Part shown: in pieces, positions 4,058 to 60,005 of the stretch
How positions within the stretch are numbered: position 1 is the first letter of the stretch
Layout: the number at the start of each line of letters is the position of its first letter
NCBI RefSeq assembly: GCF_019578655.1
Contig: NC_063256.1
Span: 18,520,531-18,584,530 of the forward strand
Length of the DNA stretch: 64,000 bases
Reading direction: 5' to 3'
From: Ricinus communis
Lineage: Eukaryota > Streptophyta > Magnoliopsida > Malpighiales > Euphorbiaceae
Notes under the pieces: model-generated
Databases searched by the model: none
What the model was told of the DNA's origin: nothing
Seen by the model: the letters and a program-made list of their open reading frames with translations, nothing else
Position numbers and translations under genes: made by a program

Positions 4058-5396
4058 TTCTTTAAACAAAAACCCATAAAGTCTATAAAATTTACTAAAA
4101 GCACCTTTTTCACAAGCATTAAACACATTGACAAAATCAGAGTCATGCTCATAAATTTCTTTGATATGCTCAAAACTAAGGAATTTGGCATTCAAAGTAG
4201 AAAGAAGTGCATACCTTCAAAATAACGCATCCGCAACAACATTATCTTTACCGTGCTCGTATTTGATCATATATGGAAAGGACTCAATGAACTCACTCCA
4301 TTTAGCATGGCATTTATTAAGCTTAATTTTCCCCTTCATATGCTTCAATGACTCATGATCCATGTGAATCACAAACTCTTTAGGCCAAAGATAGTGTTGC
4401 CATGTCTCTAAAGCTCTCACCAATGCGTACGTCTCCTTATCATAAGTTGGGTAGTTAAGGCTACCCTGTTGAGCTTTTCAGTAAAATAAGCTATAGGCCA
4501 TCCTTCTTGCATAAGAACAGCTCCAAAACCAATTCTGGAAGCATCACATTCAATCTCAAAAGTCATGTCAAAATTAGGTAAAGCAAGTAAAGGTGCACTA
4601 ATTAACTTAGATTTAAGCAAGTTAAAAGCCTTTTCTTGTTCCTCACCAGATTTAAATCCCATATTATTTTTAATTACTTCCGTTAAAGGTGCGGCTGTGC
4701 TAAAGAAATCATTAACAAACCTCCTATAAAAACTAGCTAAGCCATGGAACGTTCTTACATCCCTGACACTCTTAGGTTTCGGCAAGACTCTATTGTCTTA
4801 GCCTTTTCACTATCAAATTTCTACTCCTTTAGCACTCACAAAAAATCCCAAACACACAAGTTTATTAGTGCAAAAAGAACATTTAGCAAAATTAATATAC
4901 AACTTATCTTTTTGTAAAACATCAAGTACCATACGTACATGTTCAACATGATCATCTAAAGACTTGCTATAAATCAAGATATCATCAAAATAGACAACCA
5001 TAAATTTTCCAATAAAAGCACACAAAACATGATTCATTAATCTTATAAAAGTGCTAGGTGCATTAGTCAAGCCAAAAGGAATGACTAACCGTTCATAAAA
5101 ACCATACTTTGTTTTAGATGTGGTTTTCCATTCATCACCCACCTTTATCCTAATTTGATGATAACCAGATTTCAAATCAATTTTAGAGAAGATAGTCGAC
5201 CAACAGAGTTCATCTAACATATCATCCAAACGAGGAATAGGATGACCATACTTTACTGTAATCTTGTCGATAGCACGACAATCAACACACATACACCATG
5301 ATCCATCCTTTTTTAGTACAAGTAAGACGGGCACCGCACATGGGTTCATACTTTCTCTAATCAACCATTTGGCCATCAAATCTTCTACTAGTCATT
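4058..5396 (-). pseudogene. Ty3/gypsy reverse transcriptase and RNase H (C-terminal part of a split pol)
   Basis: The RT runs 5379-4813 on the minus strand with [34 protein letters not shown] and the catalytic [11 protein letters not shown] motif intact. RNase H and its connecting region follow at 4785-4217 ([29 protein letters not shown]), in at least two frames, so frameshifts are present near 4800 and 4430. These enzymes copy retrotransposon RNA into DNA. The RT lacks its N-terminal ~75 residues, which are found 8.7 kb away at 14101-14318; the two pieces are separated by the tandem array and share a duplicated GCAAC at the cut. No integrase follows; RNase H ends near 4058 against gag of another copy. 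Confidence 0.9.
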
Positions 5397-5401
5397 GCAA
5401 C
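5397..5401. repeat. Target-site duplication, left copy (GCAAC)
   Basis: GCAAC (GCAACT if one base is shared with the insert) lies exactly where the RT gene is broken, and the same word occurs at 14096-14100. The unbroken relative at about 22550 has one GCAAC-type word at this place, as expected for a 5-bp duplication made by integrase. Confidence 0.7.
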
Positions 5402-8164
5402 TAATTTGGACCTTGGCAACTTGTGACAAGACCCAACACGCGGAATCGGAATTAGAATCCAAAGAAAGCCAAATCTGATCTTTGATGACATAAATCAATT
5501 AAGATTTATTCCTAAATAACAAGATATGCGGCTGCCCCATTATTTAATATTTGAAATTGGCGCACTCTTAGGTCAAGTAACACAAGTTAGGCTCCTTCTT
5601 TTGGTATCCTCTTCAAGGAAATTCGACCTCCCATTTCCTTATGAATATTTTGGCCCAAACTAGCTTTTGTCAAGGCCTAACATGGTGGATTAGGCTATTG
5701 AATAGGCCCATTTAAGGCATCCTTCCTCCTCTTAGCCCTAGCTCTTATAATTGGACCTCTGTTGATGAATAAGGGGTCATTTAAACTTGTAATTGGACTT
5801 GGAGTAGAAATCGACCCTTGATTTAAAGTTGGATCATGAGTTGCCTTTGAGTCTTGATTCGCATTATTAAATGATGTGAATCTTGGCAACTTGTGATAAA
5901 ACCCAACATGCGGAATCGAGATTAGACACCCAAGAAAGCCAAATATGATCTTTGATGATCTTGACCTAAAGATAACTTCTATCTCGAACCTTGGTATAAA
6001 AATAATGGTTGATGTCAAACTCAAGAAGGGTAGAAGGTGAGTGATAAGTAGATGTTGAATGCCATAAGAACAAGTTCTTGGTAAGTACGAAGTTCTTCCA
6101 AAGAACCAAGAAAGAATGATTCTCACAAATATATTTAACTTAAAATATTCACTAACTTGTGCCATTCGGCTACATATAATTTAAATAGACAAATAAATTA
6201 CCCTAATTTCATATTTGCATAAAGAAAATAAACTAAATAGGAATTAAATAAAGTATATGCTAAATAAAATTTTTTCTAAATAAATAAAATAAGGAACTAT
6301 GGTTAATTATGATATAATAAAATAAGAAGCCTAATTGATTTAGTCAATCATAGTCAATAAAGACATGGCTAAATAATCAAGATTTATTCCTAAATAATAA
6401 GATATGCAGGTGCCCCATTGTTTCCTCTTTGAAGTTGGCACATTCTTATGTCAAGCAACACACATTAGGCGCATTCTTTTGGTTTCGTCTTCAAGGAAAT
6501 CCCTCCGACCCCTTTTCCTTACGAATATGTTAGCCCAAACTAGCTATTCTTAAGGCCTAACATAGTGGATTGGGCTATTGAATAGGCCCATTTAAGGCCT
6601 CATTCATCCTCTTAGCTCTAGCTCTTATAATTGGACCTCCTTTGATGAATAACATATCCTTTGAACTTGTAATTGAAGTCGGAGTAGAATTCGACCCTTG
6701 ACTTGAAGTTGGATCATGACTTGTCTTTGACTCTTGATTCACATTATTAAATGATGTGAACCTTGGCAACTTGTGACAAAATCCAACACATGAAATCGAG
6801 ATTAGAATCCTAGGAAAGCCAAATATGATCTTTGATGATCTTGACCCAAAGATAACCTATATCTCAAACCTTGGTATAAGAATACTGGTTAATGCCACAA
6901 TCAAGAAAGGTAGAAGGTGAGTGCTAAATCAATTATGAACACCACAAAAACAAGTTGTAAGTTCGAAGTTCTTCCAATGAACAAAGCAAGAATAATTCTC
7001 ACAAATATGTTTAACTCAAAATATTCATTAACTTGTGCCAATCGGCTACGTATAAATTAAATAGACAAAGACATTACCCTAATTTCCTATTTGCATAAGG
7101 AAGAAAAACTAAATAGGAATTAACTAAAGTAGAATTTGTAATTGGGCATGGAGTAGAATTTGTAATTGGGCATGGAGTAGAATTTGCCCCTTGACATGAA
7201 CTTGGATCATGACTTGGCTTTGACTCTTAATTTGCATTATTAAATGATGCGAGCCTTGGCAACTTGTGATGAGACCTAACAAGCGAAATCGAGATTAGAA
7301 TCCCTAGAAAGCCAAATCTGATCTTTGCTAACCTTGACCCAAGAATAACTTGTATCTCAAACCTTAATATAAGAATAATGGTTGATGCCACATTCAAGAA
7401 AGGTAGAAGGTGAATGATAAGTCGATGTTGAATTCCACAAGGACAAATTCTTGCTAAGTTTGAAGTTCTTCCAAAGAAGCAAGCAAGAACAATTCTCACA
7501 AAAATGTTTAACTCAAAATATTCATTAACTTGTGCCATTCGGCTACATATGATTTAAATAGACAAAGATATTACCCTAATTTCCTATTTGCATAAGGAAA
7601 ATAAACTAAATAGGAATTAACTAAAGTATATGCTAAATAGACATTTTTCAAAATAAACAAACTAAGGAAATATGCTTAATTAGGATATAATAAAAAACCT
7701 ATTCTAAAAGGAAATAATAAAATACTTCCAAAATAACAAAATAAGAAGCCTAATTGATTTAGTCAATCATAATCAACAAAGGTATGGCTAAATCAATAAA
7801 GATTTATTCGTAAATAATAAGATATGCGGCTACCCTATTGTTTCCTCTTTGATGTTCGTGCACTTTTAGGTCAAGCAACACACATTAGGTGCCTTCTTTT
7901 GGTTTCCTCTTCAAGGAAATTCATCCCCCCTTTTCCTTATGTATATTCTGGCTTAAAATAGATTTTCTAAAAGTCTAACATGGTGGCTTGGGTTATTAAT
8001 TAGGTCGATTTAAGGCCTCTTTCAATCTCTTAGCCCTAGCTCTTAAAATTGGATCTCCGTTGATCAATAACGGATCCTTTGAACTTGTAATTAGACTTGG
8101 AGTAGAATTCAATGCTTGACTTAAAGTTGGATCACGACTTGACTTTTACTCTTGATTCACATTA

Positions 8165-11100
8165 TTAAATGACCTGAGTCTTGGCAACTTGTTACAGACC
8201 CAATATGCGAAATCGGGAGTAGAATCCCATGAAAGCCAAATTTGTTCTTTGAGGAGCTTGACCCAAAGATAACTTGTATCTCGAACCATGGTATAAGAAT
8301 AATGGTTGACGCCATACTTAAAATAGGTAGAAGGTGAGTGATAACTCGATGTTGAATGCCACAAGGATAAGTTCTTGGTAAGTTCGAAGTTCTTCTAAAG
8401 AACCAAGCAAGAACAATTCTCACAAAAAATGTTTAACTCAAAATATTCATTAACATGTGCCATTTGGCTACATAGGATTTAAATACACAAAGACATTACC
8501 CTAATTTCCTATTTGCATAAATAAAATAAACTAAATAGAAATTAATTAAAGTATATGCTAAATAGAAGTTTTTCTGAATAAACAAAATAAGGACCTATGC
8601 TTAATTAGGATATAATAAAAAGCCAATTCTAAAAGGAAGTAATAAAGGCCTTCCTAAATAAAAAAATAAGAAGCCTAATTGATTTAGTCAATCATAATCA
8701 ATAAAGACATAACTAAATCAATCAAGATTTATTCGTAAATAATAAGATATGTGGCTGCCCCATTGTTTCCTCTTTGAAGTTTGCGCACTCTTAGGTCAAG
8801 CAACAAACATTAAGCGCCTTCTTTTGGTTTCCTCTTCAAGTAAATTCGTCTTTCCCTTTTTCCTATGAATATTTTGGCTGAGACTAGCTTTTCTTAAGGC
8901 TTAACATAGTGGATTAGGTTATTGAATAGGCCCATTTCAGGCCTCCTTAATCCTTTTAGCCCCAGCTTTTATAATTGGACCTCCTTTGATGAATAACGGA
9001 TCATTTGAACTTTTAATCGGACTTGGAGTAGAGTTTGACCCTTGACTCGATGTTGGATCATGACTTAGAATTAACTCTTGATTCGAATTATTAAATGAAG
9101 TGAACCTTGGCAACTTGAGAGAAGACCCAACAAGGAGAATTGGGACTAGAATCCTAAGAAAACCAAATCCGATGTTTGATGACCTGGACCCAAAGATAAC
9201 TTGTATCTCGAACCTTGGTATAACAATAATGGTTGACGCCACACTCAAGAAAGGTAGAAGGTGAGTGATAAGTCGATGTTGAATGCCACAAGAACAAATT
9301 CTTGCTAAGTTTGAAGTTCTTCCAAAGAAGCAAGCCAGAACAATTTAACTCAAAATATTCATTAACTTGTTCCATTCGGCTGTATATGATTTAAATAGAC
9401 AAAGACATTACCCTAATTTCTTATTTGCATAAAGAAAATAAACTAAATAGGAATTAACTAAAGTATATGCTAAATAAACATTTTTCAAAATAAACAAACT
9501 AAGGAACTATGCTTAATTAGGATATAATAGAAAACCCTAAAAGGAAATAATAAAAGACTTACAAAATAACAAAATAAGAAGCCTAATTGATTTAGTCAAT
9601 CATAATCAATAAAGATATGGCTAAATCAATCAAGATTTATTCATAACTAATAAGATATGCGGATGTCCTATTGTTTCCTCTTTGAAGTTGGCGCACTTTT
9701 AGGTCAAGCAACACACATTAGGCGCCTTCTTTTGGTTTCCTCTTTAAGAAAATTCATCCCCCCTTTTCCTTATGTATATTTTGGACCAAAATAGATTTTC
9801 TCAAAGCCTAACATGGTGGCTTTGGTTATTCAATAGGCCGATTTAAGGCCTCTTTCATCCTCTTAGCCCTAGCTCTTAAAATTGGACCTCCGTTGATGAA
9901 TACCAGATCCTTTGACTTGTAATTAGACCTGGAGTAGAATTCAACACTTGACTTAAAGTTGGATCATGACTTGAATTTTACTCTTGATTCGCATTATTAA
10001 ATGACGTGAGTCTCGGCAACTTGTGACAAGACCCAACACGCGGAATCGGGAGTAGAATCCTAAGAAAGCCAAATTTGTTCTTTGAGGAGATTGACCTAAA
10101 GATAACTTGTATCTCGAACCATGGTATAAGAATAATGGTGGACGCCATACTTAAAATATGTAGAAGGTGAGTGATAAGTTGATGTTGAATGCCACAAGGA
10201 TAAGTTCTTGGTAAGTTCGAACTTCTTCCAAAGAACCAAGCAAGAACAATTCTCATAAAAACGTTTAACTCAAAATATTCATTAACATCTGCCATTTGGC
10301 TACATAGGATTTAAATAGACAAAGAAATTACCCTAATTTCCTATTTGCATAAAGAAAATAAACTAAATAGGAATTAATTAAAGTATATGCTAAATAGAAG
10401 TTTTTCTGAATAAACAAAATAAGGAACTAAGCTTAATTAGGATATAATAAAAAACCAATTCTAAAAGGAAGTAATAAAAGACTTCCTAAATAAAAAAATA
10501 AGAAGCCTAATTGATTTAGTCAATCATAATCAATAAAGACATAACTAAATCAATCAAGATTTATTCGTAAATAATAAGATATGTGGCTGCCCCATTGTTT
10601 CCTCTTTGAAGTTTGCGCATTCTTAGGTCAAGCAACAAACATTAGGCGCCTTCTTTTGGTTTCCTCTTCAAGTAAATTCGTCTCTCCCTTTTTCCTATGA
10701 ATATTTTGGCCCAAACTAGCTTTTCTTAAGGCTTAACATAGTGGATTAGGTTATTGAATAGGCTCATTTCAGGCCTCCTTAATCCTTTTAGCCCTAGCTT
10801 TTATAATTGGACCTCCTTTGATGAATAACGGATCCTTTGAATTTTTAATCAGACTTGGAGTAGAGTTTGACCCTTGACTCGATGTTGGATCATGACTTGG
10901 CATTGACTCTTGATTCGCATTATTAAATGAAGTGAACCTTGGCAACTTGTGAGAAGACCCAACATGGAGAATTGGGACTAGAATCCCAAGAAAACCAAAT
11001 CTGATGTTTGATGACCTGGACCCAAAGATAACTTGTATCTCGAACCTTGGTATAAGAATGATGGTTGACGCCATACTCAAGAAAGGTAGAAGGTGAGTGA

Positions 11101-11790
11101 TAAGTCGATGTTGAATGCCACAAGAACAAATTCTTGCTAAGTTTGAAGTTCTTCCCAAGAAGCAAGCCAGAACAATTTAACTCAAAATATTCATTAACTT
11201 GTTCCATTCGGCTACATATGATTTAAATAGACAAAGTCATTACCCTAATTTCCTATTTGCATAAAGAAAATAAACTAAGTAGGAATTAATTAAAGTGTAT
11301 GCTAAATAGAAGTTTCTCTGAATAAACAAAATAAGGAACTATGCTTAATTAGGATATAATAAAAAACTAATTCTAAATGGAAGTAATAAAAGACTTCCTA
11401 AATAGAAAAATAAGAAGCCTAATTGATTTAGTCAATCATAATCAATAAAGACATAACTAAATCAATCAAGATTTATTCGTAAATAATAAGATATGTGGCT
11501 CCCTGGTTGTTTCCTCTTTGAAGTTTGCACATTCTTAGGTCAAGCAACAAATATTAGGCGCCTTCTTTTGGTTTCGTCTTCATGTAAATTTGTCCCTCCC
11601 TTTCTCCTATGAATATTTTGGCCCAAACTAGCTTTTCTTAAGGCTTAACATAGTGGATTAGGTTATTGAATAGGCCTATTTCAGGCCTCCTGAATCCTTT
11701 TAGCCCTAGCTTTTATAATTGGACCTCCTTTGATGAATAACAGATCCTTTGAACTTTTAATTGGACTTGGAGTAGAGTTTGACCCTTGAC
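8165..11790 (-). repeat. Dimeric higher-order block (P-Q-P-Q, ~1.83 kb period) in the LTR-like array
   Basis: Units beginning near 8180 and 10015 share variants not found in their neighbours (GGGAGTAGAATCC, CCAAATTTGTTCTTTGAGGAG, GCCATTTGGCTACATAGG). Units beginning near 9105 and 10933 share another set (AGAATTGGGACTAGAATCC, GATGTTTGATGACCTGG, loss of the TTCTCACAAAAATG segment before TTTAACTC). The alternation gives a two-unit period of about 1.83 kb, which means pairs of units were duplicated together. The unit at 12240 is Q-like and the one at 13187 is mixed. Confidence 0.7.
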
Positions 11791-11793
11791 TCG

Positions 11794-12182
11794 TTTCCTT
11801 ATTTCTTTAATAATAGAGTTGGCTATCTTTATGGCATCGATTGTACAAGTTCATGAAGAAGGCTGGACGAGTGGAATGAGGGAAAGCAGTTCGATCGACA
11901 AAAAAGAAAAGTAGCCCCCCTAGAACCTGGCAAAGTAACTATTAATGAATTCCCGAGCAATTCTCAATCAACATATGCATTTCATCCCCGTAAAGATTAT
12001 AACACGCAAAAGACTCCTTATCGCTCCGTGGGGAGTGGGATGAGTGATACATCCGGCGAGCGCCGGTGTAGAACGCAAGCAAAGGTGAGCTTTTCAAAGC
12101 GAACCAATCTTCCGTACCGATCCTTTTACTCTCTATCTATAAAAAAAAGAGCGCTAAGGAAACACCAATGGAGAGAGATAAG
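11794..12182. other. 389-bp organelle-like insert in an array unit
   Basis: The array unit is interrupted after CTTGACTCG and resumes at GTTGCAGGATCATGAC. The insert is clearly richer in G and C than its surroundings (for example ACATCCGGCGAGCGCCGG) and unrelated to anything else in the window. Its texture resembles plant mitochondrial intergenic DNA, which often enters nuclear DNA at break repair, but I cannot name a source gene. The forward frame at 12028-12222 is most likely incidental. There is no target duplication; a few bases of the unit are replaced at the junction, fitting end-joining. Confidence 0.45.
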
Positions 12183-14095
12183 GTTGCAGGATCATGACAT
12201 GGCATTGACTCCTGATTCGTAATATTAAATGAAGTGAACCTTGGCAACTTGTGAGAAGACCCAACATGGGGAATCGGGACTAGAATCCCAAGAAAACCAA
12301 ATCTAATGTTTGATGACATGGACTCAAAGATAACTTGTATCTCGAACCTTGGTATAAGAATAATGGTTGACGCCACACTCAAGAAAGGTAGAAGGTGAGT
12401 GATATGTCGATGTTGAATGCCGCAAGGACAAATTCTTGCTAAGTTTGAAGTTCTTCCAAAGAAGCAAGCAAGAACAATTTAACTGAAAATATTCATTAAC
12501 TTAATTTCCTATTTGCAAAGACATTACCTTAATTTCCTTTTTGCAAAGACATTACCTTAAATAGACAAAGACATTACCTTAATTTCCTATTTGCATAAAG
12601 AAAATAAAGTAAAAAGGAATTAACTAAAGTATATGCTAAATAGACATTTTTCAAAATAAACAAACTAAGGAACTATGCTTAATTAGGATATAATAAAAAA
12701 CCTATTCTAAAACGAAATAATAAAAGACTTCCAAAATAACAAAATAAGAAGCCTAATTGATTTAGTCAATCATAATCAATAAAGATATGGCTAAATCAAT
12801 CAAGATTTATTCGTATATAATAAGATATGTGGCTGCCCTATTGTTTCCTCTTTGAAGTTGGCGCACTCTTAGGTCAAGCAACACACATTAGGCGCCTTCT
12901 TTTGGTTTCCTCTTCAAGGAAATTCATGCCCCCTTTTCCTTATGTATATTTTGGCCCAAAATAGAAATTTCTCAAAGCCTAACATGGTGGATTTGGTTAT
13001 TGAACAGGCCGATTTAAGGCCGTTTTCATCCTCTTAGCCCTAGCTCGTATAATTGGACCTCCGTTGATGAATAGTGGATCCCTTGAACTTCTAATTGGAC
13101 TTGGAGTAGAATTCAACCCTTGACTTGAAGTTGGATCATGACTTGACTTTGACTCTTAATTAGCATTTTTGAATGATGTGAGCCTTGGCAACTTGTGACA
13201 AGACCCAACACACGGAATCAGGAGTAGAATCTAAAGAAAGCCAAATTTGTTCTTTGATGACCTGGAGCCAAAGATAACTTGTATCTCGAACCTTGGTATA
13301 AGAATAATGGTTGATGCCACACTCAAGAAAGGTAGAAGGTGAGTGATAAGTTGATGTTGAATGCCACAAGGACAAAATCTTGCTAAGTTTGAAGTTCTTC
13401 CAAAGAAGCAAGCAAGAACAATTTTTACAAAAATGTTTAACTCAAAATATTCATTAACTTGTGCCATTCGGCTACATATGATTTAAATAGACAAAGACAA
13501 TACCCTAATTTCCTATTTGCATAAAGAAAATAAACTAAATAGGAATTAACTAATGTATATGCTAAATAGACGTTTTTCTAAATAAACAAAACTAAGGAAC
13601 TATGCTTAATTAGAATATAATAAACAACCTATTCTAAAAGGAAATAATAAAAGGCTTCCAAAATAACAAAATAAGAAGCCTAATTGGTTTAGTCAATCGT
13701 AATAAATAAAGGCATGACTAAATCAATCAAGATTTATTCGTAAATAATAAGATATGCAGCTGCCCTATTGTTTCCTCTTTGATGTTGGCGCACTCTTAGG
13801 TCGAGCAACACACATTAGGCGCCTTCTTTTGGGTTCCTCTTTAAGGAAATTCGTCCCCTATTTTCCTTTATGAATATTTTGGCCCAAACTAGCTTCTCTC
13901 AAGGCCTAATATGGTGGATTAGGTTATTGAATAGGCCCATTTAAGGCCTCCTTCATCCTCTTAGCCCTAGCTCTTATAATTGGACCTCCTTTGATGAATA
14001 ACAGATCCTTTGAACTTGTAAGTAGACTTGGAGTAGAGTTCGACCCTTGACTTGAAGGTTGATCATGACTTGCCTTTGACGCTTGATTCTGATTA

Positions 14096-14100
14096 GCAAC
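14096..14100. repeat. Target-site duplication, right copy (GCAAC)
   Basis: Matches GCAAC at 5397-5401. It is the last part of the RT N-terminal fragment before the array begins (reading the minus strand). Confidence 0.7.
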
Positions 14101-14318
14101 TCTTTTGTCTCCTCAGGATTACTTTGATAAGCTGGTCTACTTGGAATTGAAGCGCCAGGTATAAAAACAATTTGATGCTCGATTCCCCTTATTGGTGGTA
14201 GTCCTTTACGCATCTCTTCAGGGTACAAGTCTTTGAATTCACGCAAAATAGATTGAAATACACTAGGAAAACTGATACGAGCTAAACACGACTGACAATC
14301 TACAAGCAACTCCACCTA
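14101..14318 (-). pseudogene. N-terminal RT fragment of the split pol
   Basis: On the minus strand this reads PSVFQSILREFKDLYPEEM, then RGIEHQIVFIPGA, then NPEETKEL, the usual entry to the RT domain of this Ty3/gypsy group (element B has the same words at 22815-22560). It stops where the next residues should be LQRQV, and those resume at 5396 downward. An open frame continues into the array to 13974 but that part is array sequence. Its outer side is joined to the Athila-like solo LTR at 14324. Confidence 0.85.
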
Positions 14319-21723: not shown

Positions 21724-22815
21724 CTAAGCCATGGAACTCTTAGGTTTTAGCCAAGACTCTATTGCCTTAACCTTTTCACTATCAACTTCTATTCCTTTAG
21801 CACTCGGAACAAATCCTAAAAACACAAGTTTATTAGTGAAAAAAGAAAATTTAGCAAAGTTGATATACAACTTCTCTTTACACAAAACATCAAGTACCAT
21901 GCGCACCTGTTCAACATGATCATCTAAAGACTTACTAGAAATTAAGATATCATCAAAATAGACAACCATAAATTTTCCAATAAAAGCATGCAGAACATGG
22001 TTCATTAATTTCATAAAAGTGCTAGGTGCATTAGTCAAGCCAAAAGGCATGACTAACCATTGATACAAACCATACTTTGTTTTAAATGTGGTTTTCCATT
22101 CATCACCCACCTTTATCCTAATTTGGTGATAACCAGATTTCAAATCAATTTTAGAGAAGATAGTCAAGTGGTTGTCCCTTTTCCATTCTTCAAACCTGGT
22201 TGTTAAGAACGGCACCGGCATCTTGTGCGGAGGCAGGCCTTCCATCGGGCTGGGAAAGTTGTCTAATTAAGACATGTATTTGCTCCAACTCCAGCTCGGA
22301 AGCCATCTGGAGCCCTATTTCTTTCGCAATCCTATCCCTGAACCCTTTTAGAGCACTCTGACCCATAGATTTCATCTAACATATCATCCAAATGAGGAAT
22401 GGCGATACTTTACTATAATCTTGTTGATAGCATGACAATCAACATACAAACGCCATGTTCCATCCTTTTCTGGTATAAGTAAGACGGGAACCACACATGG
22501 CCTCATACTTTCTCTAAGTAGCCCTTTGGCCATTAAATCTTGCACTTGTCGTTGCAACTCATTCGTCTCCTTAGGATTACTTCGATAAGCTGATCTATTT
22601 GGAATTAAGGTGCCGGGTGAAAAATCAATTTGGTGCTTGATTCCCCTTGTTGGTGGTAGTCCTTTAGTCATCTCTTCGAGGTATAAGTCTTTGAATTCGT
22701 ACAAAAGATATTGAAAGACACTAGGCAAACTAGTGTTTTCTTGGTTAGTGCTTAAATAGGTGCCCTCGTACAAAAATACAATTATGGGTTGCCTTGAAAG
22801 AAAAGCTCTCTTCAC
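21724..22815 (-). pseudogene. Reverse transcriptase of element B, interrupted by a foreign insert
   Basis: Minus strand. N-terminal part 22815-22384: FKDLYLEEM, RGIKHQIDF, NPKETNELQRQVQDLMAKG, VPVLLIPEKDGTWRLYVDC. Middle and C-terminal part 22165-21724: [27 protein letters not shown] and [11 protein letters not shown] with the catalytic Asp pair intact. Between them, at the DMLDEL segment, about 200 bp of unrelated sequence replaces some 20 bp. RT copies the element RNA into DNA. Beyond the insert there is a frame change near 22390. The order protease-linker-RT-RNase H-integrase is complete for element B, making it the best preserved minus-strand copy. Confidence 0.9.
22165..22366 (-). other. 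~200-bp GC-richer insert within RT of element B
   Basis: The sequence between the words AGAGAAGATAGTC and AGATTTCATCTAACATATC has no match in the other RT copies (5195-5220 and 38205-38230), where the two sides are nearly contiguous. It is visibly richer in G and C. On the minus strand it is open throughout, beginning MKSMGQSALKGFRDRIAKE and continuing through ELELEQIHVLIRQL. That looks like a piece of real protein-coding sequence, perhaps of another mobile element, but I do not recognise it. No target duplication is evident. Confidence 0.6.
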
Positions 22816-23845: not shown

Positions 23846-24763
23846 TTTCTACCTTGCTAGAAAGCAAGTTATGGATTCTTTCAAGAATTTTGGGAGTTAT
23901 CTAGACTTGTGCGAGCGAGCATATACTTATCGCTCATGTCCTTCCTTTCTTTTGTGTTCTTTGTCTACCCTTGTATTTAAATCAATTCGATTTGATCCTT
24001 ATGCTTAGCTGTATGGAAGAGAATAATTAACTTGTGATTTCTTTACATATCAAATTTGAAATCCTACCTATGTTTTCATTTTGTTCATTTCTTTGTGCCT
24101 CTCTTTCTAATCTTTGTCTAATATTATGGTTTGGTTTTATTTAGAGATCATAAACACAAGTGTTAAGTTAATGCGCTTGGAAGCAGCAATCATAGCACCG
24201 ATCCAATGCTTGGACAAATGTAAGGAAAGAAAATTAGTTGATCAAGTATTGATATCATTCTCTGAATAATCCTAGATGAATCTTATAGAGGAAAGAAGGA
24301 ACAATGAGAATCACGACACGCTCTAATATTTCGATTCAAGATTTCCACCATTTGAATCTCCATTATTTCTTGCTCCTCTAGACACGAGGACTCCTAGTAA
24401 CATAAGAATATGTGTAAGGAATCATGAGAATGTAATTGACAATCTTGACCGGTGGCATTGCGGATTAGCTTGATGATCAAGGAGGATAAGACATAAATCC
24501 ATGCCCGTAAGGGAGAAATCATGGTTTCTTTTATTGATCCAAGCAGGAATGACTGTGTTTGGATGTTTGCGAGGCTTATAATGAAGTAAATTAGGCTGGA
24601 GTGTTATTAAGTATGCTGAAGCAAATTTCCCCTTATTTTCATTAAAAAATCATGAGAATACAATTAACAAGCTTGACGGGTGGCATTGGGGCATGCCTTG
24701 ATGATCAAGCAGCATGAGATGCAAATCCATGTTCATAAGGGAGAAATCATGTTGCTTTCGATT

Positions 24764-24768
24764 AATTA
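24764..24768. repeat. Target-site duplication of solo LTR, left (AATTA)
   Basis: AATTA directly before the TG of the LTR at 24769; the same five bases follow its CA at 25635-25639. Confidence 0.75.
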
Positions 24769-25634
24769 TGATGAGAACCCATGTAGCACAAGGAATTCTA
24801 CACCAACAAGGAATCCTAAGGATAGAATTCATACTTGCTTAATGAAGCCTACTTCAACAAGGAATTCTAATCCAACAAGGAGTCCTGATGACATTAGGAG
24901 TTCAAGTGAGATATCCTATTTCCACTAGGAATCCTAATACAACTAAGAGTCCTAGTTAGATTCGAAGTCTAAGTGAGATTGGGCTTTAATCAAAACAATG
25001 GGCCTCAAGATACTCTTATCAACTTAATCCAACATATGGAGGCATGAACAAGTCAAGATAAGCCTAAAATATACAAGTTAAACTATTTAGAGTCCAATGC
25101 TTAAGAATAGGCTATTTATCACATGTTACTTAAGCCTAAATGTCATGTTTATTATATAGGCTTGGGTTAGATGAATGTTAGGAGTATTTGTTTATTTAAA
25201 GAAGTATTTTAATAGTTAGGAGTCTTGTTTTAAGTTATCCTTTTAATTTTTTTTACAAGTTCTATTCCTAGTCTTATTGTCATTTGTTTCCTTTTCATTA
25301 TAGAATTAGGTTTTTTAAGGCCTATATAAGATAGTACGAATTTATAGGTAAAGGTTGTTGAATATTGATTATTTTAGACTTAATTGTCTTTTTTAATTTT
25401 TCATGAACTTGGTGAATTTATTAAGTGAAGGCTTGGTGTTTTATAAACTTAGTTTTTACTAAACTTCATTTTATATTGAACAACCATTAATTCTTTATAA
25501 TTAAGGTTCTTAAATAAGATTATTTAAGGGTCTTGTTAGGAGTTAGAGCTTGTCTGCTTGATTAGGTGAACAATCCTTGGTGAAGACATCAAAATTGAAT
25601 ACGGGTTTGGCACAAGTTAGTCACATTCATATCA
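24769..25634 (+). mobile_element. Solo LTR (866 bp) of the same Ty3/gypsy family
   Basis: Starts TGATGAGAACCC and ends CATTCATATCA, flanked on both sides by AATTA. It has the family words in order: repeated ACAAGGAATCC-type words at 24785-24960 (hexapeptide register TRNPKD, TRNSNP), then a TATA-like AAGGCCTATATAAG at about 25318-25332 followed by TAGTACGAATT, then an AT-rich U5. It is in the opposite direction to the element cluster on its left. No internal sequence remains, as expected after recombination between the two LTRs of a full element. Confidence 0.85.
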
Positions 25635-25639
25635 AATTA
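25635..25639. repeat. Target-site duplication of solo LTR, right (AATTA)
   Basis: Matches AATTA at 24764-24768. The array sequence on the two sides is not contiguous in the unit consensus, so the target was already a deletion junction when the element inserted. Confidence 0.7.
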
Positions 25640-25934
25640 TTACAGTCTTCTACCTTACGGAAAATCAAGTTATGGGTTCGTTGAAGAACTTTGAGGGCTT
25701 ATCAACACTCATGCTAGCGTACATAGACTTATTGCTCACGTCCTTCCTATTTTTTATATTCTCTATCTACCCTTGTGTTAAAATAAATTCAATTTGATCC
25801 TTACGCTTAGCTATATGGAAGAAACAAAGAACTGGTGATTTCTTTCCTTATTGGATATGAAATCCTACTTATGTTCTCATTTTGTTCATTTCTTTTGTGC
25901 CTCTCTTTCTATTCTTTATCTAGTATGATGGCTT

Positions 25935-26010
25935 GATAGTGACTTTTTTCATTTGGTAGGGCGACGAAAGGCCTACTTTAATCTAGGAAAAAGCCGGAAA
26001 CATGAAAGGT
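25935..26010. other. Small non-array insert (~75 bp)
   Basis: Array sequence CTAGTATGATGG is followed by about 75 bases that other units lack, containing TAGGGCGACGAAAGGCC and AAAAGCCGGAAACATG, before GGTTTGGTTTTATTTGG resumes. It is slightly richer in G and C than its surroundings. Source unknown; filler from break repair is likely. Confidence 0.45.
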
Positions 26011-28010
26011 TTGGTTTTATTTGGGGAGCATAAGCATGAGTGTTGAGTGAAAGCGCATAGAAGAGGCAATCATAGGCATCGATCCAATGCTTAGACAAAT
26101 GTAAAAAAAAAAAAGAAAATTAGTTGATCGACTATTGATATCATTCTCCATATGATCGTCGACGAATCATTTGGAGGAAAAAGAGATGATGAGAATGAAG
26201 GCTTGTAAATTTTCCCTTGTTTTAATCGGTGGCATTGGAGCATGACTTGATAATCAAGTAGGACGAGAGGCAAAGCCAACCGCGTGATGTAGAAATCATG
26301 TTGCTTTCAATTCATCCAAGTGGAAATGCGTAAATTTTTTTCATGTTTGGGGCGCGTATAATAAAGTAATTTGTTCAGAGTATTATTCGTTAAACTGGCT
26401 CATAAAAGTTAGGAGTATGAGAGTTGTTGGCCAGTCAACTTCTCTTTGATTCTTGATTTGACTTTAATTTATTCATCTTTCTTTCTTTATTTATTTACTG
26501 ATATTTAGCTTCAAGTTTCTCATTATTATGGAATGACGGCTTTCGCACTATGAAAACCGCATGCAACTGAATATTTGAGCCTAGTGAGTATATTATTTCA
26601 ATTTTCTACCTTGCGGAGAATTAAGTTATGGGTTCTTTCAAGAACTTTGCAAACTTATAAAGACTCGCACTAGCGAACCCAAACTTATTGCTCACGTCCT
26701 TCCTTTCTTTTGTGTTTTTAATCTACTCTTGTGTTTAAATCAATTCAATTTGGTCCTTATGCTTAGCCATGATAGAGAATAAAGAACTAACGGTTTCTTT
26801 CCTTATTGGATATGAAATCCTACCTATGTTCTTATTCGCTCGTTCCTTTTATTTTTCTCTTTCTAATCTATATCTAGTATGATAGTTTAGTTTTATTTGC
26901 TTAGCATAAACACGAATGTTGAGTTAAGGTGCATGGAAGTGGCAATCATAGGCACCTATCCAATGCTTGGACAAATATGAAGAAAGAAAATTAGTTGATT
27001 TATTATTGACATCATTCTCTGAATGATCATGAATGAATCTTTTAGAAGAAAAAAGGAATACTGAGAATCGAGGCACACCCAAATATTCCATTTCAAGATT
27101 TGCACCATTGGGATCTCCATCATTCTTTGTTCCTCTAGGCACGAGGACTCCTGATGGCATAAGGAATTTGTGGTAATGCAATTAACAATCTTGACCGGTG
27201 GCATTAGGGCTTAGCTTGATGATCAAATAGGATGAGGATAAATCCACGGGCGTACGAGAAAAATCATGTTGTTTTCAATTAATCCAAGCATAATACAAGC
27301 AGCAATACGAGCGTTTTAGTATTTGGTACGCACATAATGAAGTAATTTAGGTCGAAATGTTATTAGGTAGGCCCACACAAATTTCTCCTAATTTTCATTA
27401 GCTGGCACATAAAATTTGGGACTACGAGAGTTGTTGACCAGTTAACTCCTCTCTCATTCATGATTTCACTTTAATTACAATTGGGAATACAATCATTTTG
27501 GATGTCTGGGACACAAATAATGAAGTAATTTTGTTTGGAGTGTTATTAGGTAGGCCCACGTGAATTCTCCTTTGGATCATTAAGCTGGTTCTTAAAATAT
27601 AGGACTACGAGAGTTGTTGACCAGTCAACTCCGTTCTAGTTCTTGATTTGACTTTAGTTTATTCATCTTTATTTATTTATTTATTAATATTTAGCTTCTA
27701 GTTTCTTCTGCTTATGGAATGAGGGCTTTCGCACAATAAAAACTGCATGCAACCGAATAATTAATATTATTTCAGTTTTCTATCTTGCGAGAAATCAAGT
27801 TATGGGTTCTTTCAAAAACATTGCGGACTTATCAACACTCGTGCTAACGAGCATAGACTTATCACTCACGTCCTTCCTTTCTTTTGTATTCTTTGTTTAC
27901 CCTTCCATTTAAATCAATTTGATTTGATTCTTACGTTTAGTCATATCGAAGAGAACAAAGAACTTTTGATTTCATTCCTTATCGAATATGAAATCCTATT
28001 TATGTAATCA

Positions 28011-31000
28011 TTTCCACTTTGAATTTGGGCGTGCCTCAATTCTTGTCGGTCCCTCCTTCCTCCAAAAGATTCGAATGAGATGATTCGAGAATGATATTAA
28101 TGCTCGATTAATTGATTTCATTTCATTCGAGAATGATATCAATACTAGATCAACTAATTTAATTTCCTTGCATTTGTCCAAGCAATGGATCTATGCCTAT
28201 GCTTGCCGCTTACACTCGCTTTCACTCGACACTTATGCTTATGCTTTGCAAATAGAAAAAAACCATCCTACTAAATAAAGATTAGAAAGAGAGGCATAAA
28301 AGAAAGGAGAGAAACTGCAAGTTCTTTATTCTTCTCGGTACGACTAGACGTAAGGATCAAATCGAGTTGATTTAGACACTAGGGTAGACAAAGAACACAA
28401 AAGAAAGGAAGGACGCGAGGATAAGTCTTTCTTTGCTAGGGCGACTCATGATTAGGTCGCAAAGTTTTTGGAAGAACCGATAACTTGATTTTTCACAAGG
28501 TAGAAAACTGAAATAGTAAGCTCATTAGTCTCAAGTGTTCGGCTGCATGTGTTTTTATGGTGCGAAATCCCTCATTCCATAAGAAAAAGAAATTAGAAGC
28601 TAAATATGAATTAATAAATAAAGAAAGATGAATAAACTAAAGTCAAATCAAGAACCATAGAGGAGTTGACTAATCAACCGTAGTTCTATATTCTATGAGC
28701 CAACTTAATGAAAATAAGGAGAAATTCGCGTGGGCCTATCTAATAACACTCCGACCAAAATTACTTCATTGTATGCGTCCCATACATCAAAACCGGTTGC
28801 GTTCCTGCTTGTATTATGTTTAGATTAATCCAACACAACATGATTTCTCCCTTTAACGCGTGGATTTACGTCTCGTCTCGCCAGATGATCAAGCAAAGCT
28901 TCAACGCCACCGGCCAAGCTTGTCAACTACCTACACATGATTCTTTAAACTAATCCTTGTGCCATAAGGAGTCCTCGTGCTGAGAGGAACAAGGAATGAT
29001 GGAGATCCCAGTGATCCAAGTCCTGAATTTTAGTGTGCCTTGATTCTCATCGTTCCCTCCTTCCTCCAAAAGATTCGACCGAGATCATTCGAGAATGATA
29101 TCAATGCTCGATCAATTAATTTCATTTCATTCGAGAATGAAATCAATACTCGATCAACTAATTTATTTTCCTTGCATTTGTCCAAGAAATGGATTTGTGC
29201 CTATGCTTGCCGCTTACACGTGCTTTCACTCGACACTCGTCCTTATACTCCCCAAATAAAACCAACCCATCATTACTAAACAAAGATTAGAAAGAGAGGC
29301 ACAAAAAAAGGAAAGAAATGGCAAGTTCTTTGTTCTTCTCCGTACGGCTAGGCATAAGGATCAAATCAAATTGATTTAGACACTAGGGTAGATAAGAACA
29401 CAAAATAAAGGAAGGACGCGAGTGATAAGTCTATGTTTTTTATCTCCCACAAGGTAGAAAACTAAAATAGTATGCTCATTAGCCTCAAACATTCGGTTGC
29501 ATGCGGTTTTTATGGTGCGAAATCTCTCATTCCATAATAAAAAGAAACTAGAAGCTAAATACGAATTAATAAATAAAAAAAGATGAATAAACTAAAGTCA
29601 AAACAAGAACTAGAGAGGAGTTGACTAGTCAACTGTAGTCCTAGATTCTATGAGTCAGCTTAACGAAAACAAGGACAAATTTGTGTGGGCTTACCTAATA
29701 ACACTCCGACCCAAATTACTTTATTTTATGCATCCCAAACATCAAAACGGACGCGTTCCTGCTAGTATTACAATTGGATTAATAAAAAACAACATGATTT
29801 ATCCCTCTCGAGCGTGGATTTACGTCTCGTCCCGCTTGATGATCAAGCAGAGCATCAATGCCACCGGCCAAGCTTGTCAACTGCCTTCTCATGATTCCTT
29901 ATGCTAATCCTTGTGACATCAGGAGTCCTCGTGCCGAGAGGAACAAGGAATGATGGAGATTCCAATGGTCAAAGTCTTGAGTATGGGCGTGCCTAGACTC
30001 TTGTCGTTCACTCCTTCCTCCAAAAGATTCGACCGAGATCATTGGAGAATGATATCAATGCTCGATCAACTTATTTCATTTCATTCAAGAATGATATCAA
30101 TACTCGATCCACTAATTTAATTTCGTTACATTTGTCTAAGGAATGGATATGTGCCTATGCTTACCGCTTAGACGCGCTTTCACTCGACACTCGTGCTTAT
30201 GATCCCCAAATAGAACCAAACCATCATACTAAACAAAGATTACAAAGAGCGGCACAAAAAAAACGAACAAAATCAGAACATAGGTACAATTTCGGGTCTG
30301 ATAAGGAAAGAAATCAGAAGTTCTTTGTTCTTCTCCGTATGGCTGGGCATAAGGATCAATTCGAATTGATTCAAAGACCAGGTAGACAAAAAATACAAAA
30401 GAAAGGAAGGACGCGTGCGATAAGTCTTTGTTTTTGATTTCCAACAAGGTAGAGAACTGAAATAGTATGCTCATTAGCCTCGATTATTTGGTTGCATGCA
30501 GTTTCTAAGGTGCAAAATCCCTCATTCCATAAGAGAAAGAAACTAGAAACTAAATACAAATTAATAAATAAAGGAAGATGAATAAACTAAAGTCGAATCA
30601 AGAACTAGAGAGGAGTTGACTGGTCAACCGTAGTCCTAGATTCTATGAGCCACCTTAACGAAGATAAGGAGATATTCGTCTGGGCCTACCTAATAACACT
30701 CTGACCTAAATTACTTCATTGTATGAGTCCCTCTTGATGATCAAGCAAAGCATCAACGCCACCGGCCAAGCTTGTCAATTGCCTTCTTATGATTCGTTAC
30801 GCTAATCTTTATGCCATCAGGAGTCCTCGTGCCTAGAGGAGCAAGGAATAATAGAGATCCTAATAGTCCTAAATTTGGCCCTCGATTCTCGTCGTTCCCT
30901 TCTTCCTCCAAAAGATTCGACCGAGATAATTCGAGAATGATATCACTACTCGATCAACCGATTTCATTTCATTCGAGAATGATATTAATACTCGATCAAC

Positions 31001-34000
31001 TAATTTAATTTCCTCGCATTTTTCCCAGCAATGGATCTACGTCTATGCTTGCCGCTTACATGAGCTTTCACTCGACACTCGTGCTTATGCTCCCCAAATA
31101 GAACCAAACCATCATATTAAACAAAGATTAGAAAGAGAGGCACAAAAGAAACGAAAGAAATTGCAAGTTCTTTGTTCTCCTCTGTACGGCTGGGTGTAAG
31201 GATCAAATTGAATTGATTTAGATACTAGGGTAGACAACAAACACAAAAGAAAGGAAGGACGTGAGCGATAAGTCTATTTAGACACTAGGGTAGACAAAGA
31301 ACACAAAAGAAAGGAAGGATACTCATGCTTATGCTCCCCAAATATAACCAAACCATCATACTAAACAAAGATTAGAAAGAGAGGCACAAAAGAAAGGAAA
31401 GAAATAGCAAGTTCTTTGTTCTTCTCCATACGGCTGGGCATAAAGATCAAATCGAATTGATTTAGACACTAGGGTAGACAAAGAACACAAAAGAAAGGAA
31501 GGGCATGAGCTATAAGTCTATGTTTGCGAGGACGACTCGTGATTAGCTCGCAAAGTTCTTGAAAGAACCCATAACTTGATTTCCCATAAGGTAGGAAACT
31601 GAAATAGTATGCTCATTAGCCTCAAGTATTCGGATGCATGCGGTTTTTATGGTGTGAAATCCCTCAATCCATAAGAAAAAGAAACTAGAAGCTAAATACG
31701 AATCAATAAAAAAAGAAGGATGAATAAACTAAAGTCAAATCAAGAACTAGACAGGAGTTGACTGGTCAACCATAGTCCTAATTCTCCGAGCCAGCTTAAC
31801 GAAAATAAGGAGAAATTCGGGAGGGCCTACCTAGTAACACTACGACCCAAATTACTTCATTATATGCGTCCCATACATCAAAACAGTTGTGCTTCTGCTT
31901 GTATTACACTTGGATTGATTGAATACAACATGATTTATCCCTTTCGCACATCGATTTATGTCTCGTCTCACTTAATGATCAAGCAAAGCATCAACGCCAC
32001 TGGGCAAGCTTGTCAACTGCCTTCTCATGATTCTTTGCGCTAATCCTTGTGCCATCAGGAGTCCTCGTGCCGAGAGGAATAAGGAATGATGGCGATCCCA
32101 ATGGTCCAAGTCTTGAATTTGGGCGTGCCTCGATTCTCGTCGTTCCCTCCTTCCTCCAAAAGATTCGATTGAGATCATTCAACAATGATACCAATGCTCG
32201 ATCAATTGATTTCATTTCATCTGAGAATGATACCAATACTCGATCAACTAATTTAATTTCCTTGCATTTGTCTAAGTAATGGATCTGTGCTTATGCTTGT
32301 CGTTTACACGCGCTTTCGCTCGACACTCGTGCTTATGCTCCCCAAATAAAACTAACCCATCATAATAAATAAAGATTAGAAAGAGAGGCACAAAAAAAAG
32401 GAAAGAAATTGCAAGTTCTTTGTTCTTCTACGTACGGTTGGGCGTAAGGATCAAATCGAATTGATTTAGACACTAGGGTAGACAAAGAACGCAAAAGAAA
32501 GGAAGGACACGAGCAATAAGTCTTAAATATTCGGTTGTTTTTTATTTCCTACAAGGTAGAAAACTGAAATAGTATGCTCAGCAGCCTCAAATATTCGATT
32601 GCATGCGATTTTTATGGTGCAAAATCCCTCATTCTATAAGAGAAAGAAACTAGAAGCTAAATACAAATTAATAAATAAATAAACATGAATAAACTAAAGT
32701 CAAATCAAGAACAAGAGAGGAGTTGACTGGCAATCGTAGTCCTAGATTCTATGAGCCAGCTTAACGAAAATAAGGAATAATTCGTGTAGGCTTACCTAAT
32801 AAACTCTAACACAAATTACTTCATTGTATGCATCCCAGACATCAAAACGGTCGAGTTCCTGATTGTGTTACAGTTGGATTAATCGAAAATAACATGATTT
32901 CTCCCTTTCGCATGTGGATTTACATCTCGTCCCGCTTGATGATCAAGCAACGCATCCATGCTACCGTCCAAGATTGTCAGCTACCTTTTCATGATTCCCT
33001 ATGCTAATCCTTGTGCCATCAGGAGTCCTCGTGCCAAGAGGAACAAAGAATGATGGAGATCCCAATGGTTGATGTCCTGAATTTGGGCACGCCTCGATTC
33101 TCATCGTTCACTCCTTCCTCCAAAAGATTCGACCGAGAAAATTTGAGAATGATATCAATGCTCGATCAACTGATTTCATTTCATTCGAGAATGATATCAA
33201 TGCTCGATCAACTGATTTCATTTCATTCGAGAATGATATCAATGCTCGATCAACTGATTTCATCTCATTTGAGAATAATACAAATACTTGATCAGCTAAT
33301 ATAATTTCTTTACATTTGTCTAAGCAATGGATCTATGCATATGCTTGCCCTTACATGTGCTTTCACTCGACACTCGTGCTTATGGTCCCTACATAAAACC
33401 AACCCATCATACTAAATAAAGATTAGAAATAGAGGTACAAAAGAAAGGAAAGAAATCGCAAGTTCTTTGTTCTTCTCTATACGGCTGGGCGTAAGGATCA
33501 AATCAAATTTATTTAAACACTAGGGTATTCAAAGAAAATAAAAGAAAGGAAGGACGTGAGCAATAAGTCTATTTTTTCCAAGGGCGAGTTATGATTAGCT
33601 TGCAAAGTTCTTGAAAGAACCCATAACTTGATTTCCCACAAGGTTGAAAACTAAAATAGTATGCTCATTAGCCTCAAGTATTCGGTTGCATGCAGTTTTT
33701 ACGGTGCGAAATCCCTCAATCCATAAGAAAAAGAAACTAGAAACTAAATATGAATTAATAAATAAAGAAAGATGAATAAACTAAAGTGAAATCAAGAACT
33801 ATAGGGGAGTTGATTGGTCAACCGTAGTCTTAGATTCTGTGAGCCAGCTTAACGAAAACAAGGAGAAATTGGTGTGGGCCTATCTAATAACACTCTGACC
33901 CAGACATCAAAGCGGTCGCGTTCCTGCTTGTATTACGCTTGGATTAATTGAAAACAACATGATTTCTCCCTTTCGCACGTGGATTTATGTCTCGTCCTGC

Positions 34001-35265: not shown

Positions 35266-35272
35266 GGCCTAT

Positions 35273-56984: not shown

Positions 56985-56989
56985 ATAGT
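56985..56989. repeat. Target-site duplication, left (ATAGT)
   Basis: ATAGT precedes the TG of the 2.3-kb LTR; ATAGT follows its end at 59294-59298. The uninterrupted minisatellite has CATAATAGTGCTAATAATT here, so a single ATAGT was duplicated. Confidence 0.9.
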
Positions 56990-59298: not shown

Positions 59299-60005
59299 AC
59301 TAATAATTTAATATGAGAAAATGACCATGTAAAAGTGGTATAATTAGCAATATAAGAAAATAAGCCCTTAAAATGTGTATATTTATGAATCTCAGAAAGC
59401 AACCCCGTAAAAGTAGTGTAAGAGAAAACAGCCTCGTAGAAGGGGTAAATTTTTTAGTATGAGAAATAATCTCATAATACGGGGATATTTATCAATCGGA
59501 GAAAATAACCCCGTAATTTTGGTATATTTGTGAGTATGGGAAAACAACCCTTAAATGGTTTAATTTTAGAGTATGAGAAAACAATCTCGTAAAAAGGGTA
59601 TATTTGTCGATATAAGAAAATAATCCTGTAAAACGTGTACATTTATGAATTTGACAAAACAACCCCATAATAGTGCTAATAATTTAATATAAGAAAATGA
59701 CCCCGTAAAAGTGGTATATTTATCAATAAAAGAAAATATCCTCATAAAAGTAGTGCAATTGCAACTCTGAGAAAACAACCTCATAGAAGCGGTAAATTTT
59801 TTAATATGAGAAAACAACCCCATAATATGGGGATATTTATCAATCGGAGAGAATAACCCCATAATTTTGGTATATTTTTTAGTATGGGAAAATAACCACT
59901 TAAATAAGTTAATTTTATAATATGAGAAAACAGCCCCATAAAAGGTATATATTTGTCTATATAAGAAAATAACCCCATAAAACATGTATATTTATGAATT
60001 TGACT
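59299..60005 (-). repeat. 39-bp minisatellite, right part
   Basis: Continues the higher-order pattern in phase with the left part across the solo LTR. Period markers near 59408 and 59752. Minus-strand open frames (139 codons, 59985-59566) have the same 13-residue repeat character. It stops at GAATTTGAC, where an LTR fragment begins. Confidence 0.9.

Follow-up and report, generated by a model that had tools for sequence, protein, structure and literature searches.

Structure of the array

The sequence analysed, hereafter the window, is a stretch of 64,000 nt from the 315-Mb genome of Ricinus communis (GCF_019578655.1, NC_063256.1, positions 18,520,531 to 18,584,530 of the forward strand). A tandem array of ten unit positions of about 0.9 kb, two of them with internal deletions, is found at 5402-14095, where it splits a gene for a Ty3-type reverse transcriptase (RT). 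Its components are listed below.

5397-5401, left copy of the target site duplication, GCAAC; the same site and word lie beside the arrays at loci L009 and L010
5402-14095, LTR-only tandem array, LTR sense on the minus strand, ten unit positions
5402-5866, minus strand, unit 1; inner part (about 95-546 of the reference) deleted, like the deletion in L009 and L010
5867-6746, minus strand, unit 2; coordinates include the 5-bp spacer at the left, as for the other listed units
6747-7239, minus strand, unit 3; carries an internal deletion whose scar is marked by a 24-bp direct repeat (7128-7186)
7240-8164, minus strand, unit 4
8165-9090, minus strand, unit 5; 95% identity with unit 7
9091-9996, minus strand, unit 6
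9997-10922, minus strand, unit 7
10923-12224, minus strand, unit 8; interrupted by a foreign insert
about 11794-12188, strand not assigned, insert of about 395 bp; 42.5% GC versus 33.9% in the array
12225-13161, minus strand, unit 9
13168-14095, minus strand, unit 10
14096-14100, right copy of the target site duplication, GCAAC

Pairwise identities between window units range from 74 to 95%, far above chance, and blastn pairs inside the block have E-values from 0 to about 1e-91, among the matches listed. The monomer corresponds to one whole LTR plus 5 bp; the nine LTR-LTR joints of the window have no internal domain between the LTRs. Unit coordinates and identities confirm the block described in the first-pass annotation, about ten units enclosed by GCAAC copies in an RT gene and devoid of internal domain, and the 5-bp duplication proposed there is present on both sides. 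The block ends, given as TAAT...ATTA, are also correct, whereas the inner 3' ends of the LTRs, described there as nearly matching them, mostly read ..TCA. The same annotation is corrected on three points: the LTR sense strand is the minus strand, 5 further bp are constantly present at the joints, and a non-LTR insert lies inside the array. Satellite DNA consists of long, homogenised, high-copy arrays; with ten units in the window, and four and three at two further loci, the block is better called a small tandem array.

Partial or diverged copies of the foreign insert of unit 8 are present at four other places in the genome. No Rfam match was obtained for it, nor a Pfam match for one of its open frames; it has an organelle-like look, and an organelle origin would be no more than a possibility.

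The split RT gene can be compared with an uninterrupted paralog within the window:

4813-5391, minus strand, downstream portion of the interrupted Ty3-type RT; the open reading frame matches RVT_1 (PF00078, E 2.2e-34)
14101-14310, minus strand, upstream portion of this RT region, which in the paralog runs uninterrupted into the left flank; 7 stops in the frame given
22360-22731, minus strand, paralogous RT region without array (empty site, one GCAAC)

When the two flanks were joined (301 and 220 bases) and aligned to the paralog at 22360-22731, no gap appeared at the insertion site, at which the paralog has a single GCAAC. The alignment contains one 5-base gap away from the site. Of the joined sequence, the last 47 bases are unaligned and the initial 97 correspond to another piece, at 22069-22165.

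Identification of the unit as an LTR

The array unit is the LTR of an LTR retrotransposon, because elsewhere in the genome it adjoins a PBS and a PPT, and also stands singly between other 5-bp duplications. Eight LTR-PBS borders, located beside LTR-aligned sequence in L027, L028, L031 and L032, all read ..CA/TA-TT-TGGTATC. All PPT-LTR borders at which the LTR start is defined by alignment or by the repeat, two in L028, two in L031 and one in L032, end in AA. For the family of the array LTR itself the PBS is seen in L027 and L028 and the PPT in L028, the borders in L031 and L032 belonging to a sister family. When L009-L032 were scanned more broadly for these patterns, 9 LTR-PBS and 9 PPT-LTR matches were obtained, all with TT-TGG or AA, of which one PBS and five PPT matches are unverified as LTR borders; the PPT scan required purines. 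Genome-wide, the LTR-PBS pattern was matched 136 times at up to 3 mismatches, against none for the control; among the 100 listed of these 136, 6 are exact and 19 have one mismatch. Many of the 3-mismatch matches resemble another family.

The PBS of the element carrying the array LTR is TGGTATCAGAGC. In L028 the LTR measures 927 bp and the distance from PBS to PPT is about 372 bp, for a total of ~2.2 kb with two LTRs. A solo LTR in L025 is flanked by GTAGA on either side, and AGCTT is found on either side of the LTR in L011, L019, L021 and L024, which represent one shared insertion; the words flanking the L026 LTR agree at only 4 of 5 letters. The LTR copies found are a minimum, as the initial genome search with the unit scored 40 out of 572 first-look candidates.

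The LTR has inverted repeats at its ends (TAATG...CATTA/CATCA) and a short target duplication of fixed length, with the PBS inside the 5' LTR and the PPT before the 3' LTR. Canonical TG...CA ends, usual but not required, are absent: the array LTR family starts with TAATG and the sister LTRs of L031 and L032 with TGATG. Non-canonical LTR ends are known in plants; a literature search on limited terms returned no published example. That the unit is an LTR, and that it begins with TA, had been proposed from the window and is borne out; the fuller elements, in which it might have proved to be something else, have it next to the PBS in L027 and L028 and next to the PPT in L028.

The joint sequence

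On the sense strand, LTRs are separated by the spacer TTTAA in 13 of the 14 joints known from three loci, the remaining one being TTCAA; within the window the proportion is 8 of 9, and the ninth is the TTCAA joint. An example is:

5867-5871, minus strand, spacer TTTAA in sense (TTAAA on the plus strand), between an LTR end ..CATCA and an LTR start TAATG

The spacer can be read as TT and the first T of the PBS, followed by the AA which precedes the LTR at the PPT. A joint of end-joined cDNA should show the U5 end, bases from the PBS side, bases from the PPT side and the U3 start, and 13 of the 14 joints show this order, as ..TCA-TT(T)-AA-TAAT or close to it, with one T beyond the minimal end-joining prediction (TT+AA). 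TTTAA is identical to the bases that remain at cDNA ends without processing, which suggests that an end-joined (two-LTR) cDNA lies behind the joint. A genome-wide search for the joint pattern, which misses 4 of the 14 known joints, produced 10 matches, all located at the window array and at two loci of the same contig, and none in the control.

Related loci and growth of the array

These two loci, L009 and L010, share with the window the same insertion and position-matched units. Their arrays are without right ends, and both copies of the duplication are visible at the window locus only. Homology of the left flank between the window and L009/L010 ends near window position 1412, adjoining one of the paired 484-bp repeats of L009/L010; the right flanks differ.

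A tree was built from 32 sequences, 17 array units and 15 other LTR copies, nine of which (L011, L012, L014, L016, L017, L018, L019, L022 and L024) seem to go back to a single insertion; it was built without L013, L015, L020, L021, a third, broken LTR of L028 and the sister LTRs of L031/L032. All 17 array units fall into one clade (support 0.93), on the basis of which a single founding LTR-LTR pair may be supposed. Units at corresponding positions group together: the three units 1 with support 1.0, the two units 2 with 0.99, and two units 3 plus the second unit of L010 with 0.98. Within the window block, identity is 91.0% at an offset of two units versus 86.0% at an offset of one. From the tree and from this dimer-like higher-order pattern it follows that several window units arose later, in place.

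The mean K2P distance between unit groups is 0.139-0.197, and that between array units and other LTRs is 0.158, with a minimum of 0.122. Unit 1 is 86.7% identical to a solo LTR versus 84% to the best other window unit, and for unit 2 the values are 88.1% versus 88%. Solo LTRs are about as near to units 1 and 2 as the rest of the array is, so that several founding units or cDNAs may lie behind the array.

Origin of the array

The array probably arose from an integrated small element and an end-joined cDNA joint, through loss of the internal part and multiplication of the unit in place. A non-autonomous short LTR retrotransposon, with an LTR of about 0.93 kb and an internal part of about 0.4 kb, would have entered the RT gene, duplicating 5 bp of the target. 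The integrated element may then have recombined with cDNA whose LTR ends were unprocessed and joined, in the form of a two-LTR circle or of linear copies linked end to end, giving LTR-TTTAA-LTR, and LTR-LTR recombination would have removed the internal part. The unit of LTR plus 5 bp may have multiplied by unequal exchange or conversion; the locus would have been copied to two places on the same contig once the array had at least four units, and the window array would have reached ten. No LTR-LTR-internal form was seen among the loci examined. Two origins had been offered by the first-pass annotation. As regards an LTR concatemer from circular DNA, the part concerning the joint is probably right, and a ready-made block of ten units is not needed, as several units grew later; a solo LTR expanded in place, in its simple form, fails, the joints being LTR-TTTAA-LTR and not LTR-GTTGC-LTR.

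If a ready-made LTR-only concatemer of joined cDNA ends, perhaps of several copies, had been inserted by integrase with a 5-bp duplication and had grown later, its outer ends would be processed (TAAT...ATTA with GCAAC) and its inner joints would retain extra bases, as observed. Unit groups 1, 2, 3 and 4 onwards are also about as distant from each other as from other LTRs, which fits several founding cDNAs. The array units, however, form a clade apart from the 15 other LTR copies, the same ends are explained by ordinary insertion plus recombination, and the molecule would have to be without internal domain; we know of no step yielding such an LTR-only molecule. Block entry, possible but not favoured, seems to us unlikely, and a smaller founding block is also possible. 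A first dimer made by double insertion at one target, which McGurk and Barbash reportedly proposed in 2018 as a start for TE satellites, or by tandem duplication of a solo LTR, is very improbable, as GTTGC would be expected where 13 of 14 joints have TTTAA. Nested insertion into the borders of the element itself was rejected, the spacers expected being TTTGG or GGGAA.

One integrated element would suffice if its internal domain had been deleted almost precisely by chromosomal end joining, fusing the LTRs into a dimer which then grew by unequal exchange. Such an event could yield the same joint letters, and illegitimate recombination has been proposed, in the portion of the account available, for maize CRM1TR/CRM4TR (PMC3648361). 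An internal part of ~0.4 kb, however, would have to be broken by chance within ~3 bases at its PBS side and within about two at its PPT side, and we hold this route to be quite unlikely. Tandem arrays are difficult to assemble, and the assembly sequence alone was examined; an artefact is nevertheless scarcely credible, because the window units differ by 5-26% and the three loci share position-matched units, with joints and unit order in common, and the insertion site is matched by an empty paralog. Insertion of a small element followed by recombination with end-joined cDNA is the origin we favour.

Comparison with known tandem LTR elements

Tandemly arrayed TRIMs (TA-TRIMs, PMC4717578) and Cassandra arrays (PMC7215508) are likewise short non-autonomous LTR elements in tandem, and the Cassandra PBS, as given in the portion available, is identical to that of the element described here (TGGTATCAGAGC). 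In the parts of these sources at hand, LTRs alternate with internal domains (L3I2, L5I4; TA-TRIMs are drawn with flanking target duplications, PMC4717578), whereas the window array has ten LTR positions joined by 5 bp without any internal domain. TRIMs are there defined as elements under 1,500 bp without retrotransposon proteins (PMC4717578), a limit exceeded by the element of about 2.2 kb. L028, L031 and L032 look TA-TRIM-like (LTR-internal-LTR-internal).

Tandem LTR-retrotransposons with flanking target duplications, for which a single insertion is argued, occur in rice and other plants; no choice is made there between recombination and tandem cDNA, and LTRs alternate with internal regions, unlike in the window array (PMC11899658, in the sections available). 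LTR-LTR, 2-LTR, without internal and concatemer are all absent as terms from that text. Tandem arrangement of LTR elements is frequent in plants; in the plant cases compared, as far as their sources describe them, internal domains lie between the LTRs, and the window array differs in this respect.

According to the excerpts available, the maize CRM1TR and CRM4TR repeats are also entirely derived from LTR retrotransposons and grown by conversion or exchange, but their monomer spans part of the LTR and part of the UTR with an illegitimate joint, in place of a whole LTR plus five bases (PMC3648361). Rodent RPCS and potato sobo, cited therein, resemble LTR parts and are further examples of LTR sequence as tandem-array material. 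Human MaLR "LTR arrays" have LTR sequence in tandem, higher-order structure and segmental duplication; as partially consulted, their 3.5-kb unit is a mixture of LTR fragments with internal parts, present in both orientations, unlike the window array (PMC2588610). End joining of cDNA gives LTR-LTR joints in two-LTR circles, with small indels in carrot, in the extracts available (PMC9324142; PMC3148978 for HIV); those circles are extrachromosomal, whereas the window joint is chromosomal and multiplied. No LTR-only array or integrated two-LTR joint was found among the matches listed by an open-access literature search.

With three copies of one locus to compare, the enlargement of a small array can be traced, starting from no fewer than four units and ending at ten. 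Had the array entered as a block, a dead-end by-product of reverse transcription would have become a heritable tandem repeat in one step. The spacer tells origins apart, a target word indicating double insertion and a retained internal part LTR exchange. An LTR-only array with a cDNA-end joint provides a sequence signature for the contribution of two-LTR DNA to chromosomes, and this signature can be looked for in any genome.

The array and its insertion site

The window lies at 18.52-18.58 Mb on contig C1 of the searched genome (315.5 Mb, 140 contigs), which its type of primer-binding site and its repeats suggest to be a plant's. The array and the other repeats identified in it are the following:

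5402-14095, minus strand: LTR array, ten unit positions, undamaged units of 0.88-0.94 kb
about 11794-12188: insert in unit 8, GC 42.5%, higher than the array
about 23850-35270, 49360-54240 and 60230-64000, minus strand up to about 27980 and plus strand beyond: ~1.0 kb tandem units
54276-56993 and 59310-60004: diverged 39-bp minisatellite (AGAAAACAACCCC...), ~70 copies in the first stretch

The word GCAAC immediately adjoins the array at either end. The left flank is the downstream portion of a minus-strand Ty3-type reverse transcriptase (RT) gene (RVT_1, E 2.2e-34), adjoined by RNase H domains. When the flanks (301 + 220 bases) were joined, 377 bases aligned to a paralog at 22360-22731, ungapped at the insertion site and with one 5-base gap away from it; another 97 bases match a separate piece, outside this alignment. 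Since GCAAC is found on both sides, and the paralog, ungapped at the site, carries a single GCAAC there, the array represents a single insertion that duplicated a 5-bp target.

Two units, 1 and 3, have lost internal sequence, and an insert of ~395 bp, organelle-like in look, interrupts unit 8. This insert recurs as an 88% copy on C4 and as three short, partial pieces on C5, C7 and C8. No indication of a function was found for the array. The ~1.0 kb tandem units, most of them 70-86% alike to one unit, contain a 42-bp sub-repeat and are unrelated to the array.

The repeated unit as an LTR

The repeated sequence is an LTR, which on the sense (minus) strand starts with TAATG and ends with ..GGTTCACATCA or ..CATTA. 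At two loci of contig C3, L027 and L028, the unit-type end is followed by TT and then by TGGTATCAGAGC, which we take to pair with the initiator-Met tRNA; at L028, AAAGAAAGGGGGAA or AAAAAAGAGGGGAA directly precedes the LTR start. A published report gives TGGTATCAGAGC as the primer-binding site (PBS) of Cassandra (PMC7215508).

A pattern scan of the other loci (L009-L032) returned nine LTR-PBS-like borders, all with TT-TGG, and nine borders resembling polypurine tract (PPT)-LTR, all ending in AA, purines being required by the pattern. LTRs known from alignment adjoin eight of the former, the exception being the match at L023, and four of the latter (L028, L031); L032 provides one additional PPT border, likewise AA. 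Genome-wide, 136 sites fit the LTR-PBS pattern when up to 3 mismatches are allowed (control 0). Of the 100 sites listed, 6 fit exactly and 19 with a single mismatch; many of the others resemble another family. The span from PBS to PPT is 372 bp in the measured copies of L027 and L028 and holds no stop-free stretch above 106 codons.

The target word GTAGA stands on both sides of a single LTR at L025, and at L026 the words flanking a single LTR agree at 4/5 letters. AGCTT on both sides of the copies in L011, L019, L021 and L024 represents one insertion within a larger repeat, its letters being altered in other copies. This repeat, of several kb, was seen at thirteen places (L011-L022, L024), nine of them on C9; most of the thirteen also have a second, partly matching LTR copy alongside.

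LTR-internal-LTR tandems of a sister family and relatives were observed at L031 (C9:8.53 Mb), L032 (C1:25.85 Mb) and L028 (C3:16.48 Mb). In L031 and L032 the LTRs are ~1.0 kb and the internal parts ~0.74 kb, and the LTR starts with TGATG, versus TAATG in the array family.

Distribution of the array and of its joints

Two further loci contain the array:

C1:21.95 Mb (L009): array at the same RT position as in the window
C1:21.65 Mb (L010): array at the same RT position as in the window

The unit 1 deletion is common to all three. Where L009 and L010 align over long stretches they are 94-95% alike; on the right, each array breaks off within a unit that is fused to other DNA. Homology of their left flanks to the window ends next to two direct repeats of 484 bp (L029, L030), ~1.5 kb apart, which are possibly another LTR element.

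The spacer at the LTR-LTR joints is TTTAA in eight of the nine window joints (TTCAA in the other), and in all those of L009 (3/3) and L010 (2/2); the letters flanking it differ slightly between joints. A 31-base joint pattern, allowing up to 3 mismatches, matched 10 times in the genome, 5 at the window locus, 3 in L009 and 2 in L010 (control 0). Of the 14 known joints it recovers 10, the missing four all lying in the window, so diverged joints elsewhere could escape the search.

Relationships among units

A FastTree tree was built from 32 sequences, 17 array units and 15 LTR copies from outside the arrays; of these 15, nine seem to go back to a single insertion. All 17 array units fall in one clade (0.93), separate from the others. 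Unit 1 of the window, L009 and L010 groups together (1.0), as does unit 2 of the window and L009 (0.99), while unit 3 of these two groups with the second unit of L010 (0.98). Position-matched units thus group across loci, and at least four unit types therefore predate the copying of the locus. Later copies are among window units 4-10: u5 and u7 are 95% identical, and identity within the array is 91.0% at a two-unit offset versus 86.0% at a one-unit offset.

Mean K2P distances between unit groups are 0.139-0.197. Across loci, matched units 1 and 2 differ by 0.075-0.090 and unit 3 by 0.166-0.171, the window copy of unit 3 being damaged and contributing 493 aligned bases. The host flanks differ by 0.066-0.075 between the window and the other two loci and by 0.03 between L009 and L010. 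Assumed plant substitution rates between 6.5e-9 and 1.3e-8 per site per year would put some 5-15 million years between the unit groups and some 2.5-6 million years between the locus copies.

Origin of the array

In plants, LTR elements arranged in tandem together with their internal parts are common (PMC4717578, PMC7215508, PMC11899658), and LTR-related tandem repeats are known from maize, potato and rodents (PMC3648361) and from humans (PMC2588610). In Lathyrus, satellites derived from subrepeats within retrotransposons are described (PMC7004042). Among the open-access papers listed in the literature searches, none was found with an LTR-only array that has a two-LTR joint.

In TTTAA, the first three letters correspond to the TT between LTR and PBS and the T with which the PBS begins, and the last two to the AA between PPT and LTR. 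If a solo LTR had been duplicated along with flanking bases, or if two elements had entered one target, the joints should read GTTGC, and a second copy inserted at the border of the first predicts TTTGG or GGGAA; TTTAA is seen. Two-LTR circles arise from end joining of linear cDNA, and retroviral integrase trims a dinucleotide off cDNA 3' ends ahead of joining (PMC3148978); small indels are reported at LTR-LTR junctions of carrot eccDNA (PMC9324142). The simplest end joining predicts TT+AA, and the observed joint is one T longer. A tRNA base that stayed attached might have served as template for this extra T.

A plainer rival is a near-precise internal deletion; a bolder one is a ready-made concatemer, perhaps from several cDNAs. 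Array units are at a mean K2P of 0.158 (minimum 0.122) from other LTRs, about the distance among unit groups, which counts against a single founder, as does a solo LTR being as close to window units 1 and 2 as any other window unit. The most likely origin combines insertion, end-joined cDNA, recombination and growth in place. An ordinary insertion would have produced the GCAAC duplication; end-joined cDNA would then have recombined with the inserted element, giving the LTR-TTTAA-LTR joint; internal parts would have been lost by LTR-LTR recombination, and unequal exchange or conversion would have built the array.
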